NCBI GenBank assembly: GCA_903897715.1
Contig: CAIUCS010000072.1
Span: 1-35,457 of the forward strand
Direction: 5' to 3'
DNA length: 35,457 nucleotides
DNA from: an uncultured Synechococcales cyanobacterium
GTDB taxonomy: Bacteria; Cyanobacteriota; Cyanobacteriia; CAIUCS01
The notes under the pieces are model-generated. The model was given only the letters and a program-made list of their open reading frames with translations, was not told where the DNA came from and searched no databases. Position numbers and translations under genes: made by a program. Positions 14,853 to 25,181 of this stretch are shown here, in pieces. Position 1 is the stretch's first letter. The number at the start of each line of letters is the position of its first letter.

Positions 14853-15125
14853 TTATGGTCCAGAAAATACAGCTGCTTCAATATCTTGCCGACTGAGGGA
14901 ATATTTGAAAGAGCGTTGAATGTCTTTCCCGTCCTCTCCTGAACCCAGATAACGCACCGTAATTTGATCAGTGTCTAGGGTAATTTCTGCTTGCCAATTT
15001 GGTCGGGATACAGACCAGAAATGGGGCTCGGTGGAGTTTTGGCAGCAGTCCATAGACATTAGCCACTGTTCAATATCCGGAAGGGGATGGTTGTAAAGGG
15101 GAGTTTCGCTGGAAGGAATGGACAT
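14853..15125 (-). CDS. DUF3143 family protein
   Basis: A 90-residue soluble protein that I recognise as the cyanobacterial DUF3143 family by TPLYNHPLPDIEQWL near the start, the WxAEITLDTDQITVRYL strand in the middle and the C-terminal FKYSLSRQDIEAAVFSGP. Function is not known to me. It lies 60 bp downstream of the J-domain gene on the same strand. I recall DUF3143 next to DnaJ-domain genes in other cyanobacteria, which would suggest a chaperone-related role, but that is inference from context. Confidence 0.85.
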   Translation of the reverse strand: MSIPSSETPLYNHPLPDIEQWLMSMDCCQNSTEPHFWSVSRPNWQAEITLDTDQITVRYLGSGEDGKDIQRSFKYSLSRQDIEAAVFSGP

Positions 15126-15185
15126 ATTTAAGAACAGTAACGGTAAGAAAGTTAAGGGGTTATAGACGGAGTAAAGGAAGGGGGA

Positions 15186-15782
15186 TCATCCCGATTTGGA
15201 TGATTTGAAGGTTAGTTGAATTGTCGTTTCCCCTAATTCTATCTCCTGATGAAAAATCATTGGAGAAGTGATGGCGGGAGAATCAGATGGGGAGGGATAA
15301 ATAATGGCAATACCTTTGGTGAATCCAATCGCGATCGCCAGTATTAAACATCCCACTACCGTCAATCCTAAAATGAATAAGGCAAAAACCTCTCCCGCTG
15401 ATAGGGGTCGATCAGTGGGATCTAAATACAGGGATGAAGTCTGATAGCCTTTAGTTTTGCCCCAAGTCCCATTAAGGTCTGGGGGTGGTTGGATCACCGC
15501 AATTCTGGAATATCCAATGGATTGATCGTAAAGGAGACGTCGTTCAGGATTGCTCAGCACTCCATAGGCTTGGTTGAGGTGATAAAATTTAACCGTTGCC
15601 ACATCGGTTGTTAAGTCAGTGGTGTCTGGATGAAAGCGTTTACTTAACTCCCGATAAGCAGCACGAATTTGTTGCACTGAAGCCGAGGGATGTAAACCCA
15701 GCAAACGATAATAATTTTCTGATGCAACAACGGTTTCCGGTTGTTCCTGGTTTGATTGTGCCTTCTGATTTTGCCAGTCCAC
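15186..15782 (-). CDS. J-domain protein with one transmembrane helix
   Basis: The 198-residue product has an N-terminal J domain at about residues 22-87 (YYRLLGLHPSASVQQIRAAY) with the HPD triad at 51-53 that stimulates Hsp70 ATPase. A single hydrophobic helix is at about 132-153 (VFALFILGLTVVGCLILAIA), followed by a 45-residue tail. There is no G/F region and no zinc-finger or client-binding domain, so it is a class-C J protein that would tether DnaK to a membrane. Start is GTG 15782 with AGGAAG upstream. It lies 60 bp before DUF3143 and 129 bp after the LPxxRP-repeat gene. Confidence 0.9.
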   Translation of the reverse strand: MDWQNQKAQSNQEQPETVVASENYYRLLGLHPSASVQQIRAAYRELSKRFHPDTTDLTTDVATVKFYHLNQAYGVLSNPERRLLYDQSIGYSRIAVIQPPPDLNGTWGKTKGYQTSSLYLDPTDRPLSAGEVFALFILGLTVVGCLILAIAIGFTKGIAIIYPSPSDSPAITSPMIFHQEIELGETTIQLTFKSSKSG

Positions 15783-15911: not shown

Positions 15912-16766
15912 TCAGTCTAGGTAACCCATCAACGTGGTTGAATCGTCAATTTCATTGGAAGCAATTGGGCGATGCCCTGGCAGGGAATGATTATTGGAAA
16001 TTTGTAAGTGACTGGCAACAATCGGTCGATGTCCAGGCAAGGAGTTGGTATCTAGAACTTCAATATCACTGGCAACTATGGGGCGTTGCCCATAAAGATT
16101 GACCGTTTCAATCACTTGAATATCACTGGGAGAAACGGGACGGCGACCCAGTAGGGACGATTTGGTGAGACGGGACTCACCGGCTGGAACGATGTCAGTG
16201 GACTGGGACGGAGGAGATACGTTGAATGGTTTGGGGGTACTCATGGGTTTAATTTGTTCAACCTTTAAACTATTGGATGCAATTGGACGGTTCCCTGGCA
16301 AAGGCAGGGGGGTATACCCTTCAGGAAATGTTGCTTTTACCTCCGGTTTACTATTGGAAGCAATAGGCCGATTCCCAGGGAGGGGGACAGCCTTAAATAT
16401 GTCCTTAGATTGTACCACAATGGATGATTCAGTGGGTTGTGGGGTAGGTCTGGGGACAAGTTGTAGGGGCGGCGATTGGCTAGGCTGGCTTGTACTGGGA
16501 GCGAGCCGATTAAGACGGTTTGCTGGTGGAGACAGTTGGGAATGAGGTTGGATTATTACAGAAGCCCCTTCTTCCCCAAGTTGTTCTGGGGGGTGGGGAG
16601 GATCAACGGGAATCTCCTGAATGTCTGCTTGAGGGGGAACAGATGGGGAGATTGTCTCAGTCACTGAAGGTTGGACTGCACTATTTTTTTCAGAAGTGCC
16701 AGAGGCTTTACTCCGACTTACTGCAGTGCGGCGACTACTGGACTTGGGTGTTGTATCAGGACTCAT
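15912..16766 (-). CDS. LPxxRP-repeat protein, long paralogue (function unknown)
   Basis: I do not recognise a characterised family. From ATG 16766 (AGAGGT eight bases upstream; a TTG at 16769 is also in frame) the 284-residue product starts with about 120 Ser/Pro/Thr-rich, probably disordered residues. Six copies of a motif with consensus LPGxRPI follow. Their RP dipeptides begin at residues 133, 160, 209, 228, 247 and 266; the last four are exactly 19 residues apart. A typical unit is SLPGHRPIVASHLQISNN. The protein ends LMGYLD. No signal peptide or membrane helix is seen. The divergent gene at 17190 encodes a shorter protein of the same design, so the two are paralogues. Confidence 0.85.
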   Translation of the reverse strand: MSPDTTPKSSSRRTAVSRSKASGTSEKNSAVQPSVTETISPSVPPQADIQEIPVDPPHPPEQLGEEGASVIIQPHSQLSPPANRLNRLAPSTSQPSQSPPLQLVPRPTPQPTESSIVVQSKDIFKAVPLPGNRPIASNSKPEVKATFPEGYTPLPLPGNRPIASNSLKVEQIKPMSTPKPFNVSPPSQSTDIVPAGESRLTKSSLLGRRPVSPSDIQVIETVNLYGQRPIVASDIEVLDTNSLPGHRPIVASHLQISNNHSLPGHRPIASNEIDDSTTLMGYLD

Positions 16767-17189
16767 CAAACCATACCTCTAGTCACACTGACCTCATAGT
16801 TTTCAAGGGTAAAGTTAGGTTTATTTCCTAGTTATAGGTGACCCTTAACTTCCCCCAAAAGAGGAACTAGCGAGGGTAGCCCACAACCTTCCTTACCTGG
16901 GGGAATGGAACAGTTACAGTTATGTGAAACTGGCTATTAGTTTTATTAAAACATGAATTGACATTCTCAATTGACATTCTTTTAGATGTAAATCTATCAG
17001 GAATATGATAGTACCTCATCATACCTTGTACTTAGGTGGATCAATACGCCACTAGGAGGAACAATATGCTAAAATAACGAAATAAAACCGGTTAATGGCA
17101 AACCTAATGGTTTGTTATTCATTATCCACCCATGACATCCACTGATTTTTTCTCAAAATTAATATTTTCATACTTTATTAGCGTTTTAC
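16767..17189. promoter_or_regulatory. Divergent intergenic region between the LPxxRP-repeat genes
   Basis: This 423-bp spacer must hold promoters for both repeat-protein genes. It contains a 13-bp tandem repeat, AATTGACATTCTC then AATTGACATTCTT (16956-16981). An inverted repeat CTATCA-6-TGATAG follows at 16994-17011, and an overlapping GTA-N8-TAC at 17011-17024 matches the NtcA consensus. A second inverted repeat, TTCCCCCA and TGGGGGAA, lies at about 16852-16907. No -10 box sits at the right distance from the GTA-N8-TAC for a class-II NtcA promoter, and such a six-base match occurs by chance about once per 4 kb. The motifs are visible; regulation by any factor is conjecture. Confidence 0.4.
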
Positions 17190-17660
17190 ATGATGACTCA
17201 AGACGAACAAGCGATCGAAGAACTACCCACTGGCGGCAAAATTCAAACCACACCTCCAAGTTCCGTCATTGAATCCGCTCACCTTTTTCAGACAGGGCGT
17301 TTACCAGGCAAATATCCTATTTTGAAAACAAACCTCCAGGTTCTAACCCACTCAGGATTGCCCAATGGACGACCAGTATTTGCCAGTCACCTCCAGACAA
17401 GGATTGATGCAGGATTACCCCATAATCGCCCGATCTTCATTACAGATGTACGGGTGGTGAGAACTGATTCTTTACCCCATAATCGACCTGTATTTGAGGA
17501 TGAAGTCCATATGGTGCCAGGCTTTGGCATTATGGGTCGTCCTGTGGCAATCAGTGATATTCCTATTCCTGACTATAGCCCCCTGCCCAATAATCGTCCC
17601 ATCGCTCATAATAATCAAGACTATGAAAACATAGAAGCAATCATTGGTTATTTAGATTAG
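17190..17660 (+). CDS. LPxxRP-repeat protein, short paralogue (function unknown)
   Basis: The 156-residue product consists almost wholly of six repeats. Their second conserved position (Arg, or Tyr in the first) falls at residues 42, 61, 80, 99, 117 and 136, a period of 19, 19, 19, 18 and 19. Units read GLPHNRPIFITDVRVVRTD, or variants with YP or MGRP. The C-terminus IIGYLD parallels LMGYLD of the divergent paralogue. There is no signal peptide or membrane segment. ATG 17190 is immediately followed by a second ATG; no clear ribosome binding site is visible. It lies 48 bp upstream of the CpcS-type lyase on the same strand, so co-transcription is plausible. I do not assign a function. Confidence 0.85.
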   Translation: MMTQDEQAIEELPTGGKIQTTPPSSVIESAHLFQTGRLPGKYPILKTNLQVLTHSGLPNGRPVFASHLQTRIDAGLPHNRPIFITDVRVVRTDSLPHNRPVFEDEVHMVPGFGIMGRPVAISDIPIPDYSPLPNNRPIAHNNQDYENIEAIIGYLD

Positions 17661-25000: not shown

Positions 25001-25072
25001 AGCCCGTATCGAGAGTTGAACTCGAGACCTCTTCATTACCAATGAAGTGCTCTACCACTGAGCTATACGGGC
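25001..25072 (-). tRNA. trnT-GGU: tRNA-Thr (GGU anticodon)
   Basis: Minus-strand sequence begins GCCCGTATAGCTCAGTGGTA and ends TCTCGATACGGGCT. The acceptor arms GCCCGTA/TACGGGC pair perfectly. The D arm contains AGCTCAGTGGTAGAGC, the anticodon stem-loop is CTTCA-TTGGTAA-TGAAG with GGT at the anticodon, and the T arm contains GTTCAAC. It is 72 nt, with no encoded CCA. It lies 67 bp upstream of leuA and 27 bp after tRNA-Tyr. Confidence 0.96.
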
Positions 25073-25099
25073 GACAAACCCTTGAAAAATTCTAGTGGA

Positions 25100-25181
25100 T
25101 GGGCCGGGCTAGATTCGAACTAGCGTAGGCGTAGCCAGCGGATTTACAGTCCGCCCCCATTAACCGCTCGGGCACCGACCC
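25100..25181 (-). tRNA. trnY-GUA: tRNA-Tyr (GUA anticodon)
   Basis: Minus-strand sequence begins GGGTCGGTGCCCGAGCGGTT and ends AATCTAGCCCGGCCCA. The acceptor arms GGGTCGG/CCGGCCC pair with one G-T, and the anticodon stem-loop GCGGA-CTGTAAA-TCCGC shows GTA. A long variable arm (CTGGCTACGCCTACG) marks a class II tRNA, and GTTCGAATC is the T loop. It is 82 nt, with no encoded CCA. It probably shares a transcript with tRNA-Thr, which lies 27 bp downstream. Confidence 0.96.

Follow-up and report, generated by a model that had tools for sequence, protein, structure and literature searches.

A cyanobacterial family of RP(I/V)-repeat proteins with a constant C-terminal peptide and its possible link to the beta-carboxysome

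What do two neighbouring, divergently transcribed genes encode whose products share a short repeat and an identical end, and why would such proteins be needed in cyanobacteria? The genes, A and B, lie in a 35,457-nucleotide stretch of DNA analysed here as a whole (the window; Table 1). A first-pass annotation described them as paralogues with six repeats each of a 19-residue unit and a common GYLD end. The paralogy, the repeat and the shared end are borne out: the two ORFs lie on opposite strands, their products are related (BLASTP, E ~4e-10), and in 20,000 shuffles of either protein neither the number of RP(I/V) motifs nor the 19-residue spacing is reached. Six units are present in each, but the period of 19 does not extend over most of A. 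The spacings in A are 27, 49, 19, 19 and 19, the array comprising only the last four units, whereas B has five RP units spaced 19, 19, 18 and 19 in addition to a degenerate first one. At about 127 residues, the Ser/Pro-rich arm of A is longer than the 120 given earlier. It is basic near its start (residues 1-35 include six K/R and carry a net charge of +4), while B is a divergent paralogue without a basic arm (net -4 over the same stretch). The leading MM of A suggests a start at ATG 16766 rather than at TTG 16769. Searches of Pfam, NCBIfam and PDB sequences with A and B give no family match, in agreement with the earlier statement that no known domain explains them; a likeness to Apidaecin in Pfam (E 0.2) is under the cut-off and was rejected as chance. 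A 58-bp DNA match (L002) occurs elsewhere in the window's genome. Gene A is the best match in its own genome to the family profile (A1, E 2e-39) and to a tail profile (A3, E 1.9e-28); both A and B are rows of the family profile, and independent support comes from a search with B as a single query, to which 46 of 59 related genomes have a match. A and B are real paralogues of an unannotated family characterized by a 19-residue RP(I/V) repeat and a GYLD end.

Table 1. Coordinates of genes A and B, their parts and neighbours, and of related loci in other genomes (positions without a locus name are those of the window; where several loci are given, the strand follows each position)
Feature	Position	Strand	Basis or remark
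Gene A	15912..16769	-	ORF, 285 residues, canonical family form; ATG 16766 likelier start
A, N-terminal arm, Ser/Pro-rich, probably disordered	16389..16769	-	sequence
A, two separated LPGNRPIASN repeat units	16251..16388	-	repeat mapping
A, array of four 19-residue RP(I/V) units	15933..16160	-	repeat mapping
A, C-terminal peptide LMGYLD	15915..15932	-	tail conservation and motif search
A, stop codon	15912-15914	-	directly after LMGYLD peptide
A-B spacer	16770..17189	.	420 bp between the two starts
Gene B	17190..17660	+	ORF, 156 residues; family profile match E 5.7e-37 (B itself a row of the profile)
B, six repeat units, first degenerate (LPGKYPI)	17295..17639	+	repeat mapping
B, C-terminal peptide IIGYLD	17640..17657	+	tail alignment, motif search
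J protein gene	15186-15782	-	domain match
DUF3143 gene	14853-15125	-	domain match
p195 in the window's genome	G000:C9:13200-13748	-	adjoins putative class II fructose-bisphosphate aldolase gene
p195, 195 residues	L190:5187-5771 (-), L191:5375-5971 (-), L213:1501-2085 (-)		near ccmK in most retrieved loci
Acidic sub-family loci	L205:5050-5487 (-), L206:4869-5258 (-), L207:4889-5290 (-), L208:4845-5192 (+)		IDGxRPI-like repeats
ParA and small LMG(Y/F)LD-tailed gene, f17	L184:5740-6875 (-), L185:5167-6236 (+), L193:5747-6762 (-), L202:5089-6161 (-)		

The common layout of the family is a low-complexity arm, a series of RP(I/V) units with the consensus LPG(N/H)RPIxxSxLxVxxT, and an end-peptide. 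Successive RP motifs are exactly 19 residues apart in 171 of 228 spacings, and for 47 of 48 members the distance between the last RP and the C-terminus is 17-21 residues. The end-peptide, directly preceded by about two acidic residues, has the consensus (L/I)(M/I)G(Y/F)(L/I)D-COOH. With one member lacking it set aside, the last D is found in all 47 tails, and G at -4 and Y/F at -3 in 45 each; conservation of the GYLD end, which the first-pass annotation had proposed to look for, extends over most of the family. The number of repeats per member ranges from 0 to 12. In genomes of family f17 and in G056, G041 and G201 the protein has shrunk to about 45-70 residues and holds at most one RP motif, but the peptide is kept; in some lineages an arm and the peptide, together 45-65 residues, are all that is left. 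In G050, G328 and G020 additional copies are of this short kind. What varies least across the family is the end-peptide and not the number of repeats, and the six equal binding sites that had been proposed are not a general rule. In genus g5 (G004, G028 and G042; loci L115, L116 and L117) the repeats are kept and the end-peptide is missing. In f14 genomes (L040, L041 and L045) there are 11-12 repeats, with an end that is diverged (ELISFD) or missing; two of these genomes, G013 and G046, are presumably those of Gloeobacter violaceus and G. kilaueensis. Both groups are possibly early-branching, which suggests that the tail arose or became fixed later than the repeats. An acidic sub-type with IDGxRPI repeats and ends such as DFID and DYVD is found in G033, G036 and G209; three of the four acidic sub-family loci in Table 1 end in DFID, DFVD or DYVD.

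The regular period had been taken to argue for a solenoid or for a multivalent peptide. An ordered scaffold of this kind would suit the spacing of mostly exactly 19 and the alternating hydrophobic residues (LxVxxT) of the unit. However, an AlphaFold2 model of a six-repeat relative of close architecture, built from 37 aligned sequences, reaches a pLDDT of 54 and a pTM of 0.22, values that apply to a monomer, exclusive of induced or oligomeric folding, and to an alignment without the last residue of most relatives. Repeats are also variable in number and sometimes missing, and A tolerates spacers of 27 and 49. The family monomer is probably disordered, a solenoid is very unlikely, and the multivalent peptide is the part of the earlier interpretation that stands.

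With a tail profile of 60 residues, 306 of 390 Cyanobacteriia are positive for the family. With a whole-protein profile the count is 99 of 292 genomes of the phylum, all within the same class among the matches listed. CsoS2, the marker of alpha-carboxysomes, is present in 64 of the 390 genomes, all belonging to family f2, and none of the 306 family-positive genomes is from f2. As judged from profile matches, the family is present in nearly every non-alpha cyanobacterial genome sampled and has so far been unannotated. A literature search finds no string LMGYLD and no GNRPI paired with cyanobacteria, and the main text of the CyanoTag and native carboxysome papers names no match to the family. 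Strong evidence from sequence comparison points to purifying selection on the family. Absence of the repeats from close relatives had been named as an argument against the earlier interpretation, together with a lack of purifying selection; it does not apply, because the repeats recur across the class and purifying selection is strongly indicated. Even without any link to a particular cellular structure, an unannotated family that is near-universal outside the alpha group merits naming and tagging.

The genes that flank A and B in the window encode a J-domain protein, a DUF3143 protein, a CpeS-like bilin lyase and a PBP2-type transpeptidase. The single protein with J and DUF3143 parts described earlier is two genes, which adjoin on one strand (14853-15782, -) and are unlinked to the repeat family in other genomes. 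No neighbour is common above the lineage level in 47 canonical neighbourhoods (those seen include menD/menB, valS and uvrB). Conserved synteny of the canonical genes was rejected as a guide to operon partners, the neighbours being lineage-specific only, and so was the menD/menB context as a clue to function, being limited to a few lineages. Reciprocal or joint control through a shared regulatory region had also been suggested for the pair. Two adjacent divergent copies are found in the window's genome only, out of 47 genomes or loci, and a promoter scan of the 420-bp spacer gives no promoter-like signal above chance; neither the conservation of the arrangement nor the joint control is upheld. 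Two adjacent tRNA genes lie at 25001-25181 (-) of the window.

The short members have another context. In a search for BMC shell genes (PF00936), these adjoin three short tail genes: G056, G201 and G041 each have on one strand, in this order, the tail gene, a gene for a 195-residue protein (p195), ccmK and ccmK. Two of 80 p195 loci, L290 of Kastovskya adunca and L280 of an uncultured cyanobacterium, show this order again; both were retrieved through p195 and not through the tail. In G050 the short tail gene lies immediately ahead of a ccmK pair with no p195 between them. In all, six genomes have a short family gene ahead of a ccmK pair, directly or via p195. By our own rough estimate, the chance that a random gene in a 4-Mb genome is no more than 2 kb away from a particular ccmK pair is about 0.1%. 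The six genomes may share ancestry and so are not fully independent. ccmK genes are near p195 in 48 of 75 loci (named-genome loci with at least 1.5 kb downstream), and in six genomes of f17, which we take to be Thermostichaceae / Thermostichus, the tail gene directly precedes p195. For p195 itself, there is no Pfam, NCBIfam or reliable PDB match; a lysozyme assignment from a PDB chain match (E 4e-4 over 66 residues) was discarded as unreliable. p195 is missing from both alpha-carboxysome genomes tested. It is also missing from G029, G068 and G023, which have the family, and therefore p195 cannot be the general partner of the tail.

A carboxysome role is proposed because short family genes precede ccmK, the family is missing from the CsoS2 genomes, the family gene decays with shell genes in reduced genomes, and a tailed protein is linked to a ParA ATPase (both described below). 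On the likeliest reading, the A/B family would be a disordered, multivalent beta-carboxysome adaptor that docks by its C-terminal peptide, a reading drawn from genome context and, in our estimation, evenly poised between right and wrong. The docking site of the end-peptide would be a component of the shell or a factor in its assembly, as suggested by genome context and by analogy with McdB. Multiple low-affinity contacts with a second partner would be made by the RP motifs, and the arm, where basic (in A, not in B), would add a third, electrostatic contact, A and B being basic-armed and acidic-start versions of one linker. Alternatively, the tail might dock on a widespread complex of photosynthesis or central metabolism outside the carboxysome, the proximity to ccmK being secondary, via p195. 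Such a role would explain why canonical genes are not near ccm genes, and it would suit the loss in endosymbionts, as any photosynthesis-linked role would. It is also consistent with p195 adjoining a putative aldolase gene in the window's genome and with the tail gene adjoining p195 in f17, since no ccmK3/K4 is listed for Thermostichus (PMC9120777). Nevertheless, the tail gene of G050 precedes its ccmK pair without p195, p195 itself is near ccmK in most retrieved loci, and p195 is missing from some family genomes; a non-carboxysome target is rated as unlikely.

The second genomic tie is to a ParA-type ATPase. In four f17 genomes (G034, G016, G326 and G353) a protein of 89-108 residues with an LMG(Y/F)LD tail is encoded immediately after such an ATPase. 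It is basic at its start and contains a single RRP motif and what may be a strand-helix-helix segment; helices are predicted at 45-61 and 67-84 with modest or low confidence, no strand is predicted, and no PDB fold match is found. The gene order, ParA followed by the tail-bearing protein, is that of mcdAB, and the two might form a McdAB-like pair with an unusual partner. It could be argued from this order that the family works in ParA-type partitioning, the cargo being DNA or something else positioned on the nucleoid, with the tail or the basic arm contacting the ATPase. The predicted helix pair after a possible strand is reminiscent of ribbon-helix-helix partners, and at least four K/R are found in the first 35 residues of 36 of 45 arms. 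However, the ParA link is seen in one family only, and the ribbon-helix-helix fold is a low-confidence prediction with no fold match in the PDB. Net charge is mixed over the same residues of the 45 relatives (+2 or more in 18, -2 or less in 14), and B is acidic. Moreover, the common part of the family is its C-terminus, while ParA partners usually contact ParA through the N-terminus (PMC12204374), and a general partitioning role is rated as improbable, more so than a non-carboxysome target of the tail.

McdB is a carboxysome positioning adaptor and the partner of the ParA-type McdA (PMC6328274, PMC11321042, PMC8262871). Its binding to carboxysomes depends on a C-terminal motif in which an aromatic residue is essential; alpha-McdBs end in R(V/I)WPD, and in McdB-like proteins from other microcompartments a Y or F is among the five final residues (PMC11321042). 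Beta-cyanobacteria widely carry McdAB, which alpha-cyanobacteria lack (PMC8262871). The family resembles McdB in being largely disordered (as predicted), variable in length, basic at the N-terminus in A and many relatives (not in B, the charge being mixed over the family), and missing from alpha-cyanobacteria, in having a short conserved acidic-plus-aromatic C-terminal peptide (aromatic at -3, D at the end), and in the ParA-linked gene of f17. On the other hand, the C-terminal tryptophan invariant in McdB is absent from the tails of A and B, the family has a long RP(I/V) array, canonical members have no ParA gene beside them (A and B neighbour DnaJ, DUF3143, CpeS and PBP2 genes), and S. elongatus-type genomes carry the family in addition to McdB. 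CsoS2, a scaffold of the alpha-carboxysome, is disordered, carries short motifs in repeat and is tied to the shell by a terminal region, and the family would resemble it in this manner of working. It has, however, no sequence match to CsoS2 (PF12288), its repeats and tail are unrelated, its members are shorter, and the two never occur in the same genome among the 390 Cyanobacteriia. CsoS2_M repeats give no Pfam match in A or B, and PF12288 is missing from the window's genome. Membership of A and B in McdB or CsoS2 is not claimed, because the defining tryptophan and the CsoS2 repeats are missing. Parts of the beta-carboxysome are also linked by a terminal peptide or by repeated modules, as in the encapsulation peptide of CcmN and the SSUL repeats of CcmM, which the layout of the family recalls. 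The modules of CcmM are folded, neither protein has LPxxRP units or a GYLD end to our knowledge, and A and B have no CcmN or CcmM match in Pfam. CcmS is an assembly chaperone of beta-carboxysomes, encoded near ccmK1/K2, that acts via the short C-terminal peptide of CcmK1 (PMC11635287). It is, as is proposed for the family, an accessory factor of beta-cyanobacteria associated with a short C-terminal peptide and ccmK proximity, but it is a folded dimer whereas the family is predicted to be disordered; no CcmS structure was matched in the PDB sequence search with p195. An adaptor might act outside the shell, like McdB, or inside it, like CcmN or CsoS2, and the ParA pairing favours the outside.

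Several observations count against the carboxysome role. No ccm gene adjoins the long canonical genes, to which A and B belong. Absence from alpha-cyanobacteria may reflect a single loss on one branch. Gloeobacter and genus g5 have shell genes with a divergent or missing tail, and G101, G017, G324 and G359 have shell genes without the family. The likeness between McdB tails and the family peptide spans about three positions, the tryptophan not being among them. A bolder form of the carboxysome reading, which is held tentatively and is somewhat doubtful, is that the family is a near-universal, unnamed component of beta-carboxysomes, a disordered linker docking on the shell by LMGYLD as a counterpart in the style of CsoS2 or McdB, and that the same peptide on the ParA partner makes it a general carboxysome address tag. 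If the link to carboxysomes holds, a carboxysome protein has been missed in most cyanobacteria outside the alpha-carboxysome group. Its six-residue end would then be a small portable tag by which proteins could be directed to beta-carboxysomes, of use in studies of how shells are assembled and positioned and in the engineering of CO2 fixation.

Reduced genomes of genus g70 provide the evidence on decay. In G189, which we take to be the non-photosynthetic diatom endosymbiont EtSB, the family gene is eroded (L315): RP has changed to RS, RF, LP and RT, the tail reads LMKFFD, and there is an in-frame stop. In G302 (L314) the tail and RP motifs are lost, the protein diverging after ...SELL to read ...LLIVSKDSSGF, and no significant family match is found in G222. 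In all three genomes BMC genes are only broken or partial, and p195 is broken. Endosymbionts losing photosynthesis lose many genes, which counts against the carboxysome role; the decay is what a function in carbon fixation or photosynthesis would lead one to expect, without singling out the carboxysome. With family, shell and p195 genes all in decay, these genomes constitute a natural knock-out series; in the relative G185 all three are intact.
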